This document shows positions 9,041-35,095 of a stretch of DNA of 35,916 nt, piece by piece; positions within the stretch are counted from its first letter, which is position 1; each line of letters starts with the position of its first letter. The notes beneath the pieces were generated by a model that searched no databases, was not told where the DNA came from, and was given only the letters and a program-made list of their open reading frames with translations. The stretch lies in NCBI GenBank assembly GCA_021785915.1, contig JAJYEF010000005.1, forward strand, positions 1-35,916, given 5' to 3'. The translations under genes and the position numbers were made by a program. Origin of the DNA: a bacterium. Lineage in GTDB: Bacteria; Patescibacteriota; Microgenomatia; Levybacterales; UBA12049.

Positions 9041-11029
9041 TTAATTTTTAAGCATTTTTATCTGGTCTCTTAATATGGTTGCTGTTTCAAAGTCCAGATC
9101 TTTTGCGGCCTGTCTCATTTCCTTGGAGAGCCTTTTTATAAGTTTTTGTCTTTCATCGGGCAAGATTACTTCTTTTTTGCTTAACGTTAACAAATAATTT
9201 ATTTCTTCGTTTTCCTCTTCCCGCTGTTCAATCAGTTTTGCCCTGATTGATTTTTCGATAGATCTTGGAGTTATCTTGTGCTTTTTGTTATAGGCAATTT
9301 GGATTTTCCTTCTTCTTGTTACTTCGTCGATTGCGGCCTGCATGGATTTTGTTACGGTATCGGCATACATAATAACTTCGGAATCTACATTTCTTGCCGC
9401 CCTTCCCATAGTTTGTATAAGCGAAGTGCGGCTTCTTAAGAAACCTTCTTTGTCTGCGTCAAGGATTGCTACAAGTGCTACTTCCGGCAGATCAAGGCCC
9501 TCTCTTAACAAGTTAATTCCTACCAACACGTCGTGTTCTCCCTGTCTAAGTCTGTCTAACACGTCCTGTCTTTTGAGCGTTTCGATATCCGAATGAAGGT
9601 ACGACACCTTGACACCCCTTTCCTCCAAAAAAGAAGAAAGGTCTTCCGCCATTCGTTTGGTTAGCGTTGTTACCAATACCCTTTGTTTTTTGGAAACTCT
9701 TTGTTCAATTTCTTTTATTAAGTCGTCAATTTGTCCTTTAGTCGGTTTTACGGTTACCTTGGGGTCTACAAGGCCGGTAGGCCTTATTAGCTGCTCGGCC
9801 ACTGCGTTGTCCTGTGCGGCGAGGCTTAACTCGTACTCATCAGGTGTCGCGCTTACATATATCGCCTTGTGGATCCTTGTCATAAATTCTTCAAATCTTA
9901 ATGGCCGGTTATCAAGCGCCGAGGGGAGGCGAAAGCCGTATTCTATCAGAGTTTCCTTTCTAGCTCTGTCCCCGTTATACATTCCCCTTATCTGCGGTAC
10001 GGTAATGTGCGATTCGTCAATTATCGTAAGAAAGTCATTTGAGCATTCCTGAAAATAATTTAATAAGGTATAGGGAGGTTCACCGGGCTTGCGCCCGTCA
10101 AAATATCTGGAATAATTCTCTATCCCGTTTACATATCCTATCTGGTTAATCATGTCAAGGTCAAAGTTAGTGCGCTGATTTAGTCTGTGGGCCTCCAAAA
10201 TTTTTCCTTTATTTTTAAGATCTTCAACTCTTTTTGCAAGATCCTCCCTAATTTTTGGAAAAACGTCTTTATACGTCAACGGATTTGTCATATAGTGTTT
10301 GGCGGGATATATAACTGTTGAATCCAATACGCTTATCGTATCGCCTGATATAGCGTCGAATTCCATGAGTTTTTGTATTTTGCCGTTTGAAACCGCAATC
10401 CTTATCCCCGTATCAAGGTACGCGGGGAAAAGGTCGATGTCTTCGCCCCTTACCCTGAAGCTTCCCCTCTGGAATGCGTAATCGTTTCTTTCATATTGCA
10501 GGTCAGAAAGTCTTAACAAGATGTCTTTTTGTTCAAGCTTGACACCGGATTTTAATTCCATCACAAATTTACCGTATTCAATGGGGGAGCCGAGGTTATA
10601 AATACTTGAAACAGACGCGACGACGATTACATCCTTTCTTGTCAAAAGGTTAGTGGTTGCGGCGAGCCTTAGTTTGTCTATTTCTTCGTTTATTTCCACC
10701 TCTTTTTCTATATATGTATCGCTTTGGGGAATATATGCTTCGGGTTGATAAAAATCATAGTACGAAACGAAATAACAAACTGCGTTATCCGGAAAAAAGT
10801 CCCTGAATTCCTGGTAAAGCTGCGCAGCCAAGGTTTTATTGTGGGAAATGACCAGAGTAGGCTTCTGCACTTTTTCGATTACATTAGCCATCGTAAAGGT
10901 TTTTCCGCTTCCGGTCACTCCTAGAAGCACTTGGTTTCTATAGCCTTCATTAAGTCCCCTGGTTAGCTTTTCTATAGCCTGCGGTTGGTCGCCTGTAGGT
11001 TTAAAATCGGAAATAAGTTTAAATTTCAT
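9041..11029 (-). CDS. uvrB: Excinuclease ABC subunit B
   Basis: MKFKLISDFKPTGDQPQAIEKLTRG...LLGVTGSGKTFTMANVI...SYYDFYQPEAYIP...GINLLREGLDLPEVALVAILDADKEGFLRS; UVR motif at C-terminus. ATG at 11029 preferred over the longer ORF start at 11083. Confidence 0.96.
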   Translation of the reverse strand: MKFKLISDFKPTGDQPQAIEKLTRGLNEGYRNQVLLGVTGSGKTFTMANVIEKVQKPTLVISHNKTLAAQLYQEFRDFFPDNAVCYFVSYYDFYQPEAYIPQSDTYIEKEVEINEEIDKLRLAATTNLLTRKDVIVVASVSSIYNLGSPIEYGKFVMELKSGVKLEQKDILLRLSDLQYERNDYAFQRGSFRVRGEDIDLFPAYLDTGIRIAVSNGKIQKLMEFDAISGDTISVLDSTVIYPAKHYMTNPLTYKDVFPKIREDLAKRVEDLKNKGKILEAHRLNQRTNFDLDMINQIGYVNGIENYSRYFDGRKPGEPPYTLLNYFQECSNDFLTIIDESHITVPQIRGMYNGDRARKETLIEYGFRLPSALDNRPLRFEEFMTRIHKAIYVSATPDEYELSLAAQDNAVAEQLIRPTGLVDPKVTVKPTKGQIDDLIKEIEQRVSKKQRVLVTTLTKRMAEDLSSFLEERGVKVSYLHSDIETLKRQDVLDRLRQGEHDVLVGINLLREGLDLPEVALVAILDADKEGFLRSRTSLIQTMGRAARNVDSEVIMYADTVTKSMQAAIDEVTRRRKIQIAYNKKHKITPRSIEKSIRAKLIEQREEENEEINYLLTLSKKEVILPDERQKLIKRLSKEMRQAAKDLDFETATILRDQIKMLKN

Positions 11030-22803: not shown

Positions 22804-23769
22804 ATGCTAACAGACGATGTAGTTATTTTGGTAAGGGGAGGAAGTGGCGGTAACGGAGCCGTAAGTTTTAGAAGAAACGGACAGACCGCAAAAGGCGGCC
22901 CGGACGGAGGAAACGGAGGAAAAGGAGCCAACGTTTATGTTGAAGGAAGGGACGACATAACCCTTCTTTCGCAATTTCAATACAAAAAAGAAATTTTTGG
23001 CCAGGACGGCGGTAATGGAGAAAAGCAGAATAAATACGGCAAGAACGGACAGGATAGCGTATTTTATGTGCCTTTCGGAACTAAGATCACTGATTTAGCG
23101 GAAGGTAAATCGTTTGATATTGAAAAGGAAAGCGGAAAAATACTCATTGCAAAAGGCGGGGAGGGAGGAAGAGGAAATAACGAGTTTAAATCGTCAACGG
23201 TTCAGGCTCCTAGATACAGGGAATTGGGACAAAAAGGCGAGGAAAAAAAGTTGAGGCTCGAATTAAAACTTATCGCGGACGTCGGATTAATAGGGCTTCC
23301 GAATGTTGGGAAAAGCAGCCTTCTGCAAGCGCTTACAAATGCGCATCCTAAAATAGGGGATTACCCTTTTACGACACTTGAACCCAACCTGGGTGTTTTG
23401 GAGCATTTGATTATTGCCGATATTCCAGGGCTTATTAAAGGGGCATCCGAAGGAAGGGGTTTGGGAGACAAGTTTTTAAAGCACATTGAAAAAACTACAG
23501 TACTGCTTCATTGTATTGATTCAACTTCGCAAAATTTACAAAGTGATTATAAAACCGTAAGAGATGAGCTTAGAGTATATAATCCGGCGCTTTCTTCAAA
23601 ACGGGAATTGGTTGTGCTTACGAAATCTGATTTGACAGATAAAGACAAGTTGGATGAAAAATTAAAAATTGTCAAAAAACTTAACAAAAATTCTACCTGC
23701 GTTTCGGTAATTGATGATAAAAGTGTAGAGATCCTTAAGGCCAAAATCCTCGAATTAATTAAAAAATAG
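22804..23769 (+). CDS. obg: Obg-family GTPase (no C-terminal extension)
   Basis: Gly-rich Obg fold (RGGSGGNGAVSFRRN...GGPDGGNGGKGANVYV), G domain GLPNVGKSSLLQALTNAHPKIGDYPFTTLEPNLG, DIPGLIKGASEGRGLGDKFLKHIEKT. Confidence 0.96.
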   Translation: MLTDDVVILVRGGSGGNGAVSFRRNGQTAKGGPDGGNGGKGANVYVEGRDDITLLSQFQYKKEIFGQDGGNGEKQNKYGKNGQDSVFYVPFGTKITDLAEGKSFDIEKESGKILIAKGGEGGRGNNEFKSSTVQAPRYRELGQKGEEKKLRLELKLIADVGLIGLPNVGKSSLLQALTNAHPKIGDYPFTTLEPNLGVLEHLIIADIPGLIKGASEGRGLGDKFLKHIEKTTVLLHCIDSTSQNLQSDYKTVRDELRVYNPALSSKRELVVLTKSDLTDKDKLDEKLKIVKKLNKNSTCVSVIDDKSVEILKAKILELIKK

Positions 23770-23773
23770 CCGC

Positions 23774-23798
23774 AAAAAAACCCCTTACGGGGTCTTTT
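23774..23798 (+). terminator. Rho-independent terminator downstream of obg
   Basis: AAAAAAACCCC-TTAC-GGGGTCTTTT: GC stem flanked by A and T tracts immediately after the obg stop. Confidence 0.7.
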
Positions 23799-23804
23799 CG
23801 GGGC

Positions 23805-23871
23805 AACTTTCTTACGAAAGTTTCCTGCCTTTTGATACTTTCGTATCTTGAGGTATAAAGCATTCTATACC
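23805..23871. repeat. Cluster of three consecutive perfect hairpins downstream of the terminator
   Basis: AACTTTC-TTAC-GAAAGTT (23805-23822), GATAC-TTTC-GTATC (23834-23847), GGTATA-AAGCATTC-TATACC (23852-23871). Confidence 0.7.
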
Positions 23872-23976
23872 CTGGGATAACCCGTGTCAATATGACTAAA
23901 TATCCCAAAAATGGCTCAAAATATACCAACTTTGGCATAAATGTAGTCTGAGCGGGTAATTGGTATAATACGTTTT

Positions 23977-25668: not shown

Positions 25669-27393
25669 TTAAATTATGCGCAGTAACTCTTTAGCATTTG
25701 TTAAATTTGATTCTTGATCGTTTAAGCATAATAATGCTTGCTTTTCATCGATGGTTTTTCTGCCTTTTTGTTCCATACCTTCTTTTACAGCATTTTCGAT
25801 CTCTGAAATGGTTACCTCTAACGTTTCATCCAATTGATTTCTATAGCTGTAGATGCTTCTTGTAACTCTCTCTGAAAAATCATATCTTGATCTTCCACAG
25901 TGCTTATCAAATTCCTCTATGGTTCTACTTTTAATATTATCGTAAAGAAGTTTACCTGAAATGAATTTGGGAAGCTTAGAAACAATTGGAGTGAAAAACT
26001 CCACATCTACTTTTATCTCATCAAAAGAAAATTTAAACTCTACCTCATCGATTAAATTTTCCTCAGTTTCAAACGGTTTTGCTTTTATGTCAAACAGATT
26101 TGAAGAAAGCTCAATTACTTTATTCAGTGACTTATTCGTTTCGGTGGAAAATCTTCCGATGATAGATTTTAAGGACGTCTGAAGTTTAATTTCCTCTTCT
26201 TTTCTCCAAATGCTGAATATCTCTTTAATTTTTGTTTCCAGAAAAATATTTAATTTTTCGGCAAGCTGACTGCTTCCATGAGCTTTATTCTTTCCATAAA
26301 ATTCAGCAAGCTCCTCAAGAAGTAAGGGCAACTTTTCAACTTTTAGAATTTCTATATCTTCAATTAAGCTTTGATTCACAAGTTTTTGGACTTGTCCTTC
26401 CAGAATATAATCTATATCTTCTTTTTGCTGTTCTATATTTCCTATTTCTTTTTCAAACGCTACAACTTTTTCTTTTAGTAAAGATAGCGGAGTTTTAATC
26501 GTTTGTTTTTTTAGTTCTAGAATTAACTCTATCTCGTTAATTATGTATGACATTTTCTTCATCACTGACTCTTTAATAACTTTTGTCCTTTCTTTTTTCA
26601 GAAAAGAATTAAGTTCGGTTTCAAAATCCAAGAGCCTGCTCTCTTTTAACGCCTTTTTGTTATTTTTGCTCTTTCCATCCAGTCCCAGTTTCGAAGAAAG
26701 GGGATAAAACTTTAATTCTTTTACATCAAGGCTTTTTTCAACGACCTGTTTTGTAAAATCCAAAGATTGATTTCTTTCTTTTTCCTCAACTTGGTCGATT
26801 TTATTTTGAACAAAAAGTATTTTTCCCAAGTAATCTTTTATTGATAATAGGAATTGAAGCTCTGCTTGACTAATGGGTGGATCTGCGGTTACTACGAATA
26901 TGCCAACATCTGCCTTAGGTACAAAATCATAGGCAACATCAGTATTGTGTTTATATACCGAACCTACTCCCGGAGTGTCGACTATTTGAACACCTGATTT
27001 TAGAAAATCTGATTGATATTCTATTTCTACTTTATCAACCTGTTTTTTGTTTTCGGGATTTTTATTCTCGGTTACATAATCCTCCAATTCTTCGCTTTTT
27101 ATCTCAATTGTTTTACCATTTAAAAAAACAACGGAAATCTTTCTTTTATCTCCATATTTAATTATCGTCACTATTGAAGTTAAGGGAACAACAGAGGTAG
27201 GAAGGATACTCTCGCCAAGTAGAGCATTGATTAAAGAGGATTTGCCCCTTTTAAATTGACCTAAAATCACTATTTGAACTTCATTTTTTTGAAGTTTTTC
27301 AGAAAGAGCAAGTACTTTTTTACTTAACCCATCATTTTCTTTTACTATCTCAAGGCTATCAAGAATTTTTAATGAATTTATTAAGTTATCCAT
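25669..27393 (-). CDS. Dynamin-like GTPase (bacterial dynamin-like protein family)
   Basis: G1 GQFKRGKSSLINALLG, LPTSVVPLTSIVT, G3 VDTPGVGSVY, G4 FVQNKIDQV, long helical C-terminal half. Confidence 0.85.
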   Translation of the reverse strand: MDNLINSLKILDSLEIVKENDGLSKKVLALSEKLQKNEVQIVILGQFKRGKSSLINALLGESILPTSVVPLTSIVTIIKYGDKRKISVVFLNGKTIEIKSEELEDYVTENKNPENKKQVDKVEIEYQSDFLKSGVQIVDTPGVGSVYKHNTDVAYDFVPKADVGIFVVTADPPISQAELQFLLSIKDYLGKILFVQNKIDQVEEKERNQSLDFTKQVVEKSLDVKELKFYPLSSKLGLDGKSKNNKKALKESRLLDFETELNSFLKKERTKVIKESVMKKMSYIINEIELILELKKQTIKTPLSLLKEKVVAFEKEIGNIEQQKEDIDYILEGQVQKLVNQSLIEDIEILKVEKLPLLLEELAEFYGKNKAHGSSQLAEKLNIFLETKIKEIFSIWRKEEEIKLQTSLKSIIGRFSTETNKSLNKVIELSSNLFDIKAKPFETEENLIDEVEFKFSFDEIKVDVEFFTPIVSKLPKFISGKLLYDNIKSRTIEEFDKHCGRSRYDFSERVTRSIYSYRNQLDETLEVTISEIENAVKEGMEQKGRKTIDEKQALLCLNDQESNLTNAKELLRII

Positions 27394-27396
27394 AAA

Positions 27397-27467
27397 TAAA
27401 AAAAACTTCTACAAAAACATAGAAGTCATTAGCAATATAAGCCTTAAAAAGCGAACTTCATCGCTTA
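27397..27467 (-). promoter_or_regulatory. Fluoride (crcB-motif) riboswitch A with intrinsic terminator platform, upstream of the dynamin-like GTPase
   Basis: Minus strand: AAGCGATGAAGTTCGCTT TTTAAGGCTTATATTGCTAATGACTTCTATGTTTTTGTAGAAGTTTTTTTT. P1 AAGCG/CGCTT, loop GAAGT pairs with downstream ACTTC (pseudoknot), and the same ACTTC starts the ACTTCTA/TAGAAGT terminator. Confidence 0.9.
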
Positions 27468-27471
27468 TTGT

Positions 27472-27498
27472 ATTTTACAGCTTAATATATGATAAAAT
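27472..27498. promoter_or_regulatory. Divergent promoter pair 1
   Basis: TAAAAT on minus (27472-27477) and TAAAAT on plus (27493-27498), 15 bp apart, each just upstream of an aptamer. Confidence 0.7.
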
Positions 27499-27502
27499 CA
27501 AT

Positions 27503-27566
27503 CTAAGAGTGATGAAGCTCACCTAATTGTTCCTATGAACTGACAGCTTCTACGACTGTAGGAGCC
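27503..27566 (+). promoter_or_regulatory. Fluoride (crcB-motif) riboswitch B with RBS-sequestering platform, upstream of prenyltransferase-repeat protein
   Basis: AGAGTGATGAAGCTCACCTAATTGTTCCTATGAACTGACAGCTTCTACGACTGTAGGAGCC-ATG. P1 GTG/CAC region, P2 GTTC/GAAC, pseudoknot GAAGC/GCTTC, platform GCTTCTAC-GACT-GTAGGAGC masks AGGAG. Confidence 0.9.
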
Positions 27567-28391
27567 ATGTTTGATAAACAGAAAATCATAGACTACACGG
27601 AGGATAAACATCTAAAAGACGGGGGTTATTTTTTCGCTAAAGTCGAACCTTCTAGCGGTCTTGATACCTATTACGCTGTAAAAATCCTCAAAATGCTAGG
27701 AATGAAACCGCAAGACCCTTTGGGAGTAAAAAGATTTTTCCTCGATATGGAAGCTTCAGAAGGAATTGACGATATTACGGGACTGTATCTTAATCTAGAA
27801 ACACTAAAAGAGATTGGATACGATTTAACTCGTTTTAGATGCTATGAATCTATCGTTAAAGAAACACAAAATAGACATGGGGGATTTGGAACTGTTGGCG
27901 AACTCTATGTCGAGATTGCTTCAGAACTTGAAACAACCTATAGAGCTGTTGTAATTTCAAACGATTTAAATTGCTCTCTAGATAAAAATTCTCTTGTTGA
28001 GTTTATTTTTTCTTTTCAAAATAAAGATGGAGGTTTCGGAAGTAAAGGACTTTCTCTTCTTTCAACAACTTACTACGCTCTTTCAATACTTCAAGAACTT
28101 GGTGAACGGAAAAAAATTGCAAAAATTCCGAATTTTTTATTGGATATAGAAAGAAGCAATTTTTTTAACTTTTACTTAGAAGATATATTTTGGTTAACAG
28201 AAAGTTTACAACTCCTTAAACAAAAACCAAGAGATACAAAAACGATAATATCCTTTTTAGAGATGTGCATCCGGATTGACGGCGGATTTTCTCGTTCAAT
28301 AAACTTGGGAATTTCAACACTTGAGGATACATATTATGCAGTAACAATTCTTAAGAGATTGGAAGAATACGGAATACAAGAATTTGTCTAA
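27567..28391 (+). CDS. Prenyltransferase/squalene-cyclase-like repeat (alpha/alpha toroid) protein
   Basis: Repeats with DGGYF...LDTYYAVKIL, HGGFGT...LETTYRAVV, DGGFGSKGLSLLSTTYYALSILQELG, DGGFSR...LEDTYYAVTILKRL. Confidence 0.75.
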   Translation: MFDKQKIIDYTEDKHLKDGGYFFAKVEPSSGLDTYYAVKILKMLGMKPQDPLGVKRFFLDMEASEGIDDITGLYLNLETLKEIGYDLTRFRCYESIVKETQNRHGGFGTVGELYVEIASELETTYRAVVISNDLNCSLDKNSLVEFIFSFQNKDGGFGSKGLSLLSTTYYALSILQELGERKKIAKIPNFLLDIERSNFFNFYLEDIFWLTESLQLLKQKPRDTKTIISFLEMCIRIDGGFSRSINLGISTLEDTYYAVTILKRLEEYGIQEFV

Positions 28392-29812: not shown

Positions 29813-31108
29813 TTAGAAGTTTCTGAAGCTAGACAGACCCGTTCCGTAATTAGTTTTTCCCACAAGCATTCTTTCGATTCGCATCAGTCTGTTATATTTC
29901 GCCACCCGTTCAGACCTTGCCGGAGCGCCGGTTTTCATTTGTCCGATACCCATCGCAACCGTAAAGTCCGCAATAAAAGTGTCCTCAGTCTCTCCGCTTC
30001 TATGGGAAACAACAGATGTCATGTTATTTTTTCTGGCAAGTAATACCGCATCAATCGTTTCGGTTAAAGTTCCTATTTGATTTAACTTTATTAAAACAGA
30101 GTTCGTAGTTTTATTATCAATACCTCTTTGGATTCGTTTTACATTGGTGACATACAAATCATCTCCGACAATTTGGAGTTTATCTCCGAAGGAAGCCGTA
30201 AATTTTCCAAAAGCATTCCAGTCGTCTTCGGCGAAGATATCTTCCATAGAGATAATCGGGTATTTTGAGGCAAGGTTTTGGAAAAAGCCTGAAAGATCGT
30301 CGCTTGTTACTGTTTTTCCTTCCTTGGTAAGGTTATATTTTCCGTCAACAAAAAATTCCGAAGCAGCAGGGTCAATTCCGAACGAAATGTCTCCTCCGAG
30401 TTTGTATCCGGCTTTTTGGATAGCTTCTGATAAAAGCTCGAAAGGTTCTTCGTTTGAAGAAACTTTTGGAGCAAAACCTCCTTCATCTCCAACGGTTATG
30501 GCATAACCTTTTTCCTTAATTATGCCTTTTAATATCTGATAAACCTCCGCATTCATTCTGATTGCTTCAACCACAGATTTGGCTCCGATAGGGAAAAGCA
30601 TGTATTCTTGAATATCGGTTGCCCAATTTGCGTGTTTTCCACCATTCATCACATTCATTTCGGGGATTGGCATAATGTAAGTTCCGTTAAAATCTGGGTT
30701 AAATTTAGTGAGGTATTCATAGAGTTCTTTCTTTTCTGATGCGCTTTCAGCTCTGGCAGCACTTAAAGAAACAGAAAGAATTGCATTTGCCCCAAGATTA
30801 GCTTTATTTTCAGTTCCGTCTAATTCAATCATGGTCTGATCAAGTTTATTTTGATCTTGAGCGTCTAATCCAATAACTGCTTGGGAAATCTTAGAATTGA
30901 CGTTTTCAACGGCTTTTAGCACTCCTAAACCGTTATATCTGCTCTTGTCTCCATCTCTAATTTCTACAGCCTCGTACTTACCTGTGGAGGCACCAGAGGG
31001 TATTGCATCCCATCCTTTTGATCCGTCTTCAAGCACGGTTACAGCCTCAATTGTCGGGTTGCCGCGGCTATCTAAAATTTCTTGCGCTTGAACTGATTTA
31101 ATTTTCAT
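29813..31108 (-). CDS. eno: Enolase, canonical paralog 2
   Basis: AQEILDSRGNPTIEAVT, SGASTGKYEAVEIRDGD, NGGKHANWATDIQEYMLFPIGA, VGDEGGFAP, MEDIFAEDDWNAF, LIKLNQIGTLTET, VSHRSGETEDTFIAD, KTGAPARSERVAKYNRLMRIE. Confidence 0.95.
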   Translation of the reverse strand: MKIKSVQAQEILDSRGNPTIEAVTVLEDGSKGWDAIPSGASTGKYEAVEIRDGDKSRYNGLGVLKAVENVNSKISQAVIGLDAQDQNKLDQTMIELDGTENKANLGANAILSVSLSAARAESASEKKELYEYLTKFNPDFNGTYIMPIPEMNVMNGGKHANWATDIQEYMLFPIGAKSVVEAIRMNAEVYQILKGIIKEKGYAITVGDEGGFAPKVSSNEEPFELLSEAIQKAGYKLGGDISFGIDPAASEFFVDGKYNLTKEGKTVTSDDLSGFFQNLASKYPIISMEDIFAEDDWNAFGKFTASFGDKLQIVGDDLYVTNVKRIQRGIDNKTTNSVLIKLNQIGTLTETIDAVLLARKNNMTSVVSHRSGETEDTFIADFTVAMGIGQMKTGAPARSERVAKYNRLMRIERMLVGKTNYGTGLSSFRNF

Positions 31109-33355: not shown

Positions 33356-33898
33356 TTACACTATGTGTAACACTGCGCCAACAACAGATAGTCCTATTCC
33401 TACTGATATAAGGCCTATTGTCCAACGAAAAACATTTGCATAGATAATCCTTGCAATGACAAGACCCAAAAGCCCAAGAGTTGTAAGGGATACGGCAATA
33501 GAAAGTCCAGTTATGTTCGGGAAAAGTATATTTGTAGAAAGGGGTATAAGGGCACCTATAAAACCAAATATACAACTGATACCCATGCCGACAGATACTT
33601 CAACGAAGACTGTTTTGCCAAGGGAAGTTGTTGCAAACTTCCCGTGCGATACGATATTGAGTTGTTTTTCGGCGTTAATAAGTTCTCGTCGAAGCTGTAC
33701 ATATTCCGCTATGAAATAAATGAAAGAACTAGCTACGGCCGTAACAGCAGCGATGCGAAATGCCAGAGAATAATCTAATATTCCTCCTTCAATTATTTTT
33801 CCGGAGGTCAACGTTAATGCGGTTAAAACTCCGTCAACAACACCCAGCAACAGGGCAAATAATTGTTTACCAAGAATAAAATTAACAAAATTTTTCAT
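33356..33898 (-). CDS. VIT1/CCC1-like multi-spanning membrane protein
   Basis: LLGVVDGVLTALTLTSGKI, about five TM helices; overlaps the DUF211 gene by 4 bp. Confidence 0.65.
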   Translation of the reverse strand: MKNFVNFILGKQLFALLLGVVDGVLTALTLTSGKIIEGGILDYSLAFRIAAVTAVASSFIYFIAEYVQLRRELINAEKQLNIVSHGKFATTSLGKTVFVEVSVGMGISCIFGFIGALIPLSTNILFPNITGLSIAVSLTTLGLLGLVIARIIYANVFRWTIGLISVGIGLSVVGAVLHIV

Positions 33899-34179
33899 CG
33901 CGCTTGCTTTACCGGAGTAATTATTCGCTCTCCGGCACCTAATTGGTCAATACTATGTACGACAGCACCGGAATTTTCAATCGCAGTTTGTATTTTGCCA
34001 TAATCAAGATTTTGCCCTTCAATTGTAATATTCATGTCAACCGTTTCTACATCTATTTCAGCAACTTCAATATTGAATCCTTCTACACCTTTGACATTAG
34101 AAATTGCTTCGCCAATTTCCAGTAAGGAAGGGCGCTGAAGTGCTTTATCAACATCTAGTAAGAGTCTTCTAATATTCAT
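33895..34179 (-). CDS. DUF211 family protein
   Basis: MNIRRLLLDVDKALQRPSLLEIGEAISNVKGVEGFNIEVAEIDVETVDMNITIEGQNLDYGKIQTAIENSGAVVHSIDQLGAGERI; matches DUF211 as remembered. Confidence 0.82.
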   Translation of the reverse strand: MNIRRLLLDVDKALQRPSLLEIGEAISNVKGVEGFNIEVAEIDVETVDMNITIEGQNLDYGKIQTAIENSGAVVHSIDQLGAGERIITPVKQAR

Positions 34180-34187
34180 AATTGAGG

Positions 34188-34712
34188 TTACCTCTTTTCA
34201 GATACATAACGGTCCTGGCCTTCCTTAATAATCCTGTATGCCTCTTCTTTTTCCAGCCACCCGTTTATTTTTGCCCATTTACCTTCAAGCTTTTTGTATT
34301 CTTCGAAGAAGTGAACTATTTCTTTCTTATAATGTTCATCAATATCATTCACGTTTTGAATATTGCTGAGCTTAGGATCTTTCTCTACAACTCCTAAAAT
34401 TTTATAATCCTTCCCCGCGTTATCTTCCATATCCAAAGCGCCGACAACTCTAACCCTTACGACACAACCTGGGAAAAGAGGATCGGTAACAAACACCAAT
34501 ACGTCCAAATGGTCTCCGTCCTCGGCCCTTGTATGGGGCACAAACCCATAATCCGTAGGGTAAAAAACCGGAGAATGCAAAACTCTGTCAAGTCTTATCT
34601 CATCCAGGACTTCGTCAAACTCATACTTGTGATGTGAACCTTTAGGAATTTCGACAACGGCATTTATAATTTGCGGTGCTTTGTCTCCAAGCGGTATTTT
34701 TTCGTATGACAT
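34188..34712 (-). CDS. ppa: Soluble inorganic pyrophosphatase (family I)
   Basis: VVEIPKGSHHKYEFDE, RVLHSPVFYPTDYGFVPHT, EDGDHLDVLVFV, GALDMEDNAGKDYKIL. ATG at 34712 (MSYEKIPLG) preferred; the ORF-track start at 34760 lies inside the riboswitch. Confidence 0.95.
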   Translation of the reverse strand: MSYEKIPLGDKAPQIINAVVEIPKGSHHKYEFDEVLDEIRLDRVLHSPVFYPTDYGFVPHTRAEDGDHLDVLVFVTDPLFPGCVVRVRVVGALDMEDNAGKDYKILGVVEKDPKLSNIQNVNDIDEHYKKEIVHFFEEYKKLEGKWAKINGWLEKEEAYRIIKEGQDRYVSEKR

Positions 34713-34783
34713 AAAAAAACTCCTATCAAGTTTGACAGAAGCCATTAGCTTTCGAGGCAATTAGAAGCGAGCTTCATCGCTTA
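34713..34783 (-). promoter_or_regulatory. Fluoride (crcB-motif) riboswitch C with terminator/RBS-masking platform, upstream of ppa
   Basis: Minus strand: AAGCGATGAAGCTCGCTTCTAATTGCCTCGAAAGCTAATGGCTTCTGTCAAACTTGATAGGAGTTTTTTT-ATG. P1 AAGCG/CGCTT, pseudoknot GAAGC/GCTTC; CTTCTGTC...GATAGGAG stem plus U7 forms a terminator whose 3' arm contains the SD AGGAG. Confidence 0.93.
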
Positions 34784-34788
34784 ATTTT

Positions 34789-34815
34789 ATTTTACATCCT
34801 ATTATGTGTTAAAAT
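34789..34815. promoter_or_regulatory. Divergent promoter pair 2
   Basis: TAAAAT on minus (34789-34794) and plus (34810-34815), 15 bp apart, same geometry as pair 1. Confidence 0.7.
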
Positions 34816-34822
34816 CAAGTGT

Positions 34823-34879
34823 AAGTGATGGAGTTCACTCAAAACCGCATTCTTTGCTGATAACTTCTAAAAGTCTACA
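34823..34879 (+). promoter_or_regulatory. Fluoride (crcB-motif) riboswitch D upstream of the 71-aa membrane protein
   Basis: AAGTGATGGAGTTCACTCAAAACCGCATTCTTTGCTGATAACTTCTAAAAGTCTACA-ATG. P1 AGTG/CACT, P2 GCA/TGC, pseudoknot GGAGTT/AACTTC (one G-U); platform ACTT-CTAA-AAGT is weak. Confidence 0.87.
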
Positions 34880-35095
34880 ATGAACAATCTATCTTTATAT
34901 TTGCTTTTAGGAACAATGTTCGGATTTCTTGGAGGATTGGCTGCTTTTTTGATAACCTACGAGGAATACCAGCATCATTTCGTTGATAAAGGAAAGGCTT
35001 TAAACCATAGTATTGAAACCGGAGTTTTCGCATTCATTGTTTTCTTAGGTATTTCTTTGGCGGTTGGGTTGCTTTTTACCTACATCAAATTTTAA
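34880..35095 (+). CDS. 71-aa two-TM membrane protein under riboswitch D
   Basis: MNNLSLYLLLGTMFGFLGGLAAFLITYEEYQHHFVDKGKALNHSIETGVFAFIVFLGISLAVGLLFTYIKF; two hydrophobic segments. Confidence 0.75.
   Translation: MNNLSLYLLLGTMFGFLGGLAAFLITYEEYQHHFVDKGKALNHSIETGVFAFIVFLGISLAVGLLFTYIKF

Follow-up and report, generated by a model that had tools for sequence, protein, structure and literature searches.

Two divergent pairs of fluoride riboswitch aptamers, probably duplicated, precede a putative fluoride-tolerance regulon in a Levybacterales genome

Four aptamers of the fluoride (crcB) riboswitch family RF01734 (Baker et al. 2012; Ren et al. 2012) stand in two divergent pairs within the window, the whole 35,916-nt stretch of patescibacterial DNA analyzed here. 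The aptamers, the hairpins that follow them, the homology of the two pairs, and the recurrence of the associated genes are all evident in the sequences. It is very likely that the four aptamers act as fluoride ON switches, the two pairs having arisen from one duplicated bidirectional region, and that they control a small fluoride-tolerance regulon. A previous sequence-only reading had noticed a single pair, at 27397-27566. The second pair (34729-34876), which scores above the first, was absent from that reading, as were the expression platforms of both.

Two divergent aptamer pairs and their promoters

The four aptamers and their matches to the Rfam model are as follows.

27413-27474, minus strand: fluoride aptamer, pair 1 minus, upstream of the dynamin-like gene; RF01734 32.2 bits, E 2.5e-5
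27499-27559, plus strand: fluoride aptamer, pair 1 plus, upstream of the prenyltransferase-toroid gene; RF01734 19.6 bits, E 0.35
34729-34790, minus strand: fluoride aptamer, pair 2 minus, upstream of the pyrophosphatase gene; RF01734 34.8 bits
34815-34876, plus strand: fluoride aptamer, pair 2 plus, upstream of the two-TM gene; RF01734 42.5 bits, E 1.2e-8

The scores for pair 1 come from cmscan over the whole window with a lowered threshold. Since both of its strands fall below the gathering score of RF01734 (34 bits), pair 1 goes undetected in an Rfam run with default settings; both members of pair 2 lie above that score. Narrowing the Rfam scan to 221 nt gives pair 1 E values of 1.6e-7 (minus) and 0.0022 (plus). 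We also built a covariance model, R1, from 11 other aptamers, with pair 1 excluded from training. R1 recovers the minus aptamer at 56.5 bits (E 2.5e-11) and the plus aptamer at 28.4 bits (E 1.3e-4), and its only matches in the window at E<=10 are the four aptamers of pairs 1 and 2. The earlier proposal of a crcB-type aptamer on both strands of 27397-27566 is thus supported by Rfam searches of both strands, most clearly on the minus strand, and by R1, which finds both. The elements on which that proposal drew are all present in pair 1: a P1 stem in each aptamer (minus AAGCG/CGCTT, plus GTG/CAC), the loop GATGAAG, the segment CUAAUG in the minus aptamer and CUGACA in the plus aptamer, and perfect pseudoknots (GAAGU/ACUUC and GAAGC/GCUUC).

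Across 13 aptamers, the pseudoknot is paired in 65 of 65 cells, with compensatory changes in three of its five pairs. When the P1 stem is added to this pseudoknot, which joins the P1 loop to the 3' strand, 99.1% of cells are paired, and the covariation score of the two together was equalled by none of 500 shuffles. The residues of the Mg-fluoride cluster (A6, U7, G8, U38, A40, U41, G42, and U48) are all retained in the minus aptamers. Pair 2 plus carries A42, as do aptamers in genomes G037 and G646, while pair 1 plus carries both C41 and A42. Pair 1 plus is atypical, and its fluoride response is less certain because it holds the sole C at an otherwise invariant U41 among the 13 aptamers. The assignment to fluoride riboswitches, already made in the sequence-only reading, is now backed by Rfam, a lineage-specific model, the covariation of the pseudoknot, and relatives in which the same genes lie behind fluoride aptamers.

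Each aptamer is preceded by a TAAAAT -10 element.

27472-27477, minus strand: -10 TAAAAT, pair 1 minus; -35 TTGATT at 27496-27501, spacer 18
27493-27498, plus strand: -10 TAAAAT, pair 1 plus; preceded by TGA (extended -10) and overlapping the minus -35
34789-34794, minus strand: -10 TAAAAT, pair 2 minus; -35 TTGATT at 34813-34818, spacer 18
34810-34815, plus strand: -10 TAAAAT, pair 2 plus; preceded by TGT (extended -10)

The layout is common to both pairs, with TTGATT-18-TAAAAT on the minus strand and TGn ahead of TAAAAT on the plus strand. In each pair, 15 bp separate the -10 boxes, the distance that had been noted for pair 1, and 24 nt separate the aptamer matches. Pair 1 had been described as sharing one divergent promoter. 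A better description is two promoters that overlap, with TTGATT, the minus -35, lying on the plus -10. Because each minus -35 sits on the opposite -10, polymerase binding at one promoter of a pair probably competes with binding at the other.

Pairs 1 and 2 lie about seven kilobases apart. Their 40-bp spacers are identical at 30 of 40 positions, and none of 5000 shuffles scored as high. The two minus aptamers share 86% core identity with each other, versus 58-67% with their own plus partners. Given the identical -10 spacing and the homologous promoter spacer, the bidirectional switch was probably duplicated, and one such unit copied into two pairs is the simplest account. Elsewhere, genome G053 has a plus-type aptamer at a contig end (L010 84-145, minus strand) with the same spacer as in pairs 1 and 2; the surrounding stretch (L010 84-210) possibly contains the remains of a divergent partner (CGGGGTTCACTTAACCGC), which now read as part of a coding sequence.

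Downstream hairpins and a proposed switch mechanism

Three of the four aptamers are followed by a hairpin suited to act as an expression platform.

27404-27427, minus strand: intrinsic terminator hairpin of 10 bp, then a U tract, dynamin side; -8.8 kcal/mol, z -2.64
27546-27565, plus strand: 8-bp hairpin GCUUCUAC/GUAGGAGC, toroid side; -10.8 kcal/mol, z -3.13
34718-34743, minus strand: 11-bp hairpin that starts with the pseudoknot strand, pyrophosphatase side; -11.8 kcal/mol, z -4.15

The 5' arm of the dynamin-side terminator is the aptamer pseudoknot strand GACUUC. The toroid-side hairpin likewise uses the pseudoknot strand, and it covers the Shine-Dalgarno sequence AGGAG (27560-27564) just ahead of the AUG. 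On the pyrophosphatase side, a single hairpin is both terminator and Shine-Dalgarno mask (AGGAG, 34720-34724), with a U run and then directly the AUG. The platform and the aptamer pseudoknot are mutually exclusive in these three of the four leaders; the two-TM leader has a z of -0.97. We looked in the two-TM leader for a comparable hairpin and a clear Shine-Dalgarno sequence and found neither. A small hairpin after its aptamer was considered as a platform and rejected as unstable. One tentative guess is that the two-TM start codon pairs with the 5' strand of the aptamer.

We infer fluoride binding, the ON direction of the switches, the promoter competition, and the roles of the genes. Each RNA would begin at its aptamer or within a few bases of it. 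Without fluoride, the downstream hairpin would capture the 3' pseudoknot strand (RCUUC) and terminate transcription of the dynamin-like gene, mask the ribosome site of the toroid gene, or do both for the pyrophosphatase. With fluoride, the aptamer pseudoknot would form and block the competing hairpin, and the gene would be expressed. The induced pyrophosphatase would replace the fluoride-inhibited enzyme, while the two-TM, dynamin-like, and toroid proteins may have membrane or other roles in the regulon of a cell in which neither Fluc nor CLC was detected.

Switch-associated genes and their recurrence in other genomes

The genes behind the switches are as follows.

25669-27393, minus strand: dynamin-like GTPase, 574 aa (Dynamin_N, PF00350)
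27567-28391, plus strand: prenyltransferase alpha-alpha toroid protein, 274 aa (PF00432)
34188-34712, minus strand: soluble inorganic pyrophosphatase (PF00719, E 1.4e-55)
33895-34179, minus strand: DUF211 protein, 8 bp behind the pyrophosphatase gene
33356-33898, minus strand: membrane protein with weak VIT1 similarity (E 0.026), 4-bp overlap with the DUF211 gene
34880-35095, plus strand: 71-aa protein with two predicted TM helices (the two-TM protein; family in alignments A1 and A2)

The genes for the pyrophosphatase, the DUF211 protein, and the VIT1-like membrane protein probably form one operon. The two-TM protein was modelled with confidence as a helical hairpin (pLDDT 88.9). Its profile search returned a weak DUF4064 match only, with none to PF02537, and a fold search of the hairpin model against the PDB gave no significant match (best E 2.1). 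The structure model of the toroid protein, made from a single sequence, is of low confidence (pLDDT 33.7). Between the two pairs lies a gene for enolase (29813-31108), another fluoride-sensitive enzyme, with no fluoride aptamer ahead of it. The window also contains a very weak tmRNA model match of 10.5 bits (23744-23970), immediately downstream of an Obg-like gene and not called by ARAGORN.

The four RF01734 matches fall within 36 kb of a 984-kb genome that has no match elsewhere with E below about 3. Profile searches of its 97-contig assembly, rated 100% complete, did not detect Fluc/CrcB (PF02537) or CLC (PF00654). We surveyed genomes of this class and phylum, plus genomes of a Chloroflexi class reached through the two-TM protein. 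RF01734 occurs in seven of 73 family genomes at E<=0.01, three of them above the gathering score, and in four of 374 class-sampled genomes at E<=1e-4, one of these being a false match within 23S rRNA (G321 L016 1501-1559), which was discarded. Fluoride riboswitches are rare in this lineage. None was found in two genomes of the same genus, and the system is therefore sporadic.

Where aptamers do occur, the same genes tend to follow. The order aptamer, pyrophosphatase, two-TM is present in two copies in G053 and one in G054; an aptamer precedes the toroid gene in G514, and a toroid fragment and then the two-TM gene in G636. Of 351 class genomes, only three yielded the dynamin-like gene (G000, which is the window's genome, G175, and G259), each time with an aptamer and a terminator ahead, and two yielded the toroid gene (G000 and G175). 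Toroid, two-TM, and dynamin-like genes adjoin in G175. The G175 toroid gene (L032 60-125), near a contig end, has a ribosome-site hairpin and a U run behind an aptamer of just 11.7 bits, and the G259 dynamin-like gene (L057 3276-5002) is split between two open frames that lie side by side, owing either to a frameshift or to an error in the assembly.

Of 29 genomes in the Chloroflexi class reached through L024, eight encode the two-TM protein, and in five of these eight (G405, G765, G773, G774, and G776) fluoride aptamers lie near its gene. The aptamers precede DUF6062-like/two-TM, Na+/H+ antiporter, MFS, MutS-like, universal-stress, and zinc-ribbon/dynamin-like genes; the order aptamer, DUF6062-like, two-TM is found in G776, G765, and G773, and G776 additionally has aptamer, zinc-ribbon, dynamin-like. 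Family members without a detected riboswitch occur in G284, G257, and the Chloroflexi genomes G754, G755, and G775. A divergent aptamer pair 62 bp apart is present in G774 (L064 10451-10531, minus strand, and 10594-10676, plus strand), and the divergent arrangement is therefore not confined to the window's genome. G774 holds five fluoride aptamers in 16 kb, the divergent pair among them, and Chloroflexi gene islands (L060, L062, L065, L067, and L068) carry several fluoride aptamers ahead of the kinds of gene listed above.

It is possible, if rather unlikely, that one of the four aptamers, pair 1 plus, fails to respond to fluoride because it has decayed or been tuned differently, its ribosome-site hairpin being constitutive or otherwise regulated. 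The low Rfam score of this aptamer and its singular C41 point that way, as do the G053 region, where half of a pair seems to be gone, and the G175 toroid gene, which retains its hairpin behind a very weak aptamer match. However, P1, the pseudoknot, A6, U7, G8, U38, A40, and U48 are intact in pair 1 plus, its leader contains a precise competing hairpin of 8 bp, and the toroid gene lies behind clear aptamers in G514 and G636. A variant aptamer that retains the fold and senses another ligand is very improbable: three of the four genes are off the usual fluoride gene list (PMC11139923) and G39 and G42 are changed in several aptamer copies, but the nucleotides of the fluoride site are mostly retained, and in relatives the same aptamer type precedes genes for pyrophosphatase, the Na+/H+ antiporter, and CrcB, classic fluoride genes (PMC11139923). 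Chance inverted repeats or bidirectional terminators mimicking the motif, which the AT-rich elements and short stems might suggest, are ruled out by the covariance model scores, and the covariation, the repeated association with these genes, and the existence of an equivalent second pair leave this reading next to no probability.

Relation to known fluoride systems

Two exporters, Fluc and CLC-F, are regarded as the basis of fluoride tolerance. Here, a near-complete genome in which neither Fluc nor CLC was detected nevertheless has a putative four-switch fluoride regulon. This regulon points to three protein families as candidate fluoride-defence genes, which recur behind fluoride riboswitches in unrelated genomes, and the duplicated divergent switch would be a naturally occurring sensor that is compact and acts in both directions. 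A gene for Fluc or CLC-F is typical of bacteria, and the genes recognised with fluoride riboswitches or in fluoride operons are those for pyrophosphatase, antiporters, HAD phosphatases, divalent cation transporters, and enolase (PMC11139923). The riboswitch class and its control of pyrophosphatase are already known. In the open-access papers searched, we found no link between a fluoride riboswitch and dynamin-like or prenyltransferase proteins or Patescibacteria/CPR. Neither the duplicated divergent arrangement nor the membership of dynamin-like, toroid, and two-TM genes in such a regulon appears to be described in that open literature. Two or three of the four switch genes look like undescribed fluoride-defence genes. 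A more speculative idea, which we regard as improbable, is that in cells lacking Fluc and CLC-F the two-TM protein, by itself or as an essential subunit, forms a third type of fluoride exporter, and that the dynamin-like and toroid proteins also belong to a fluoride defence, as yet undescribed, that is common to this lineage and some Chloroflexi.

The system resembles RF01734 riboswitches in its aptamer fold, pseudoknot, conserved residues (all of the cluster residues in the minus aptamers, most of them in the plus aptamers), platforms at a terminator or ribosome site that would give ON switches, and pyrophosphatase target. It differs from the known ones in its two divergent pairs with overlapping promoters, its dynamin-like, toroid, and two-TM targets, and a genome without detectable Fluc or CLC. 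Like tandem riboswitches, it has more than one aptamer per intergenic region (PMC9481103); unlike tandem copies, which share one RNA, these lie on opposite strands and on separate diverging RNAs, with no two aptamers on one RNA. The review of tandem riboswitches counts fluoride among the classes not found in tandem (PMC9481103). The two-TM protein resembles the Fluc/CrcB channel as a small membrane protein behind fluoride riboswitches, but it is a 71-aa protein with two predicted helices that matches neither PF02537 nor, significantly, any PDB fold. The dynamin-like protein shares a GTPase domain with the bacterial dynamin-like protein of PDB 2j68; in contrast to 2j68, its gene lies behind a fluoride aptamer, and the sequence match is confined to residues 28-270.
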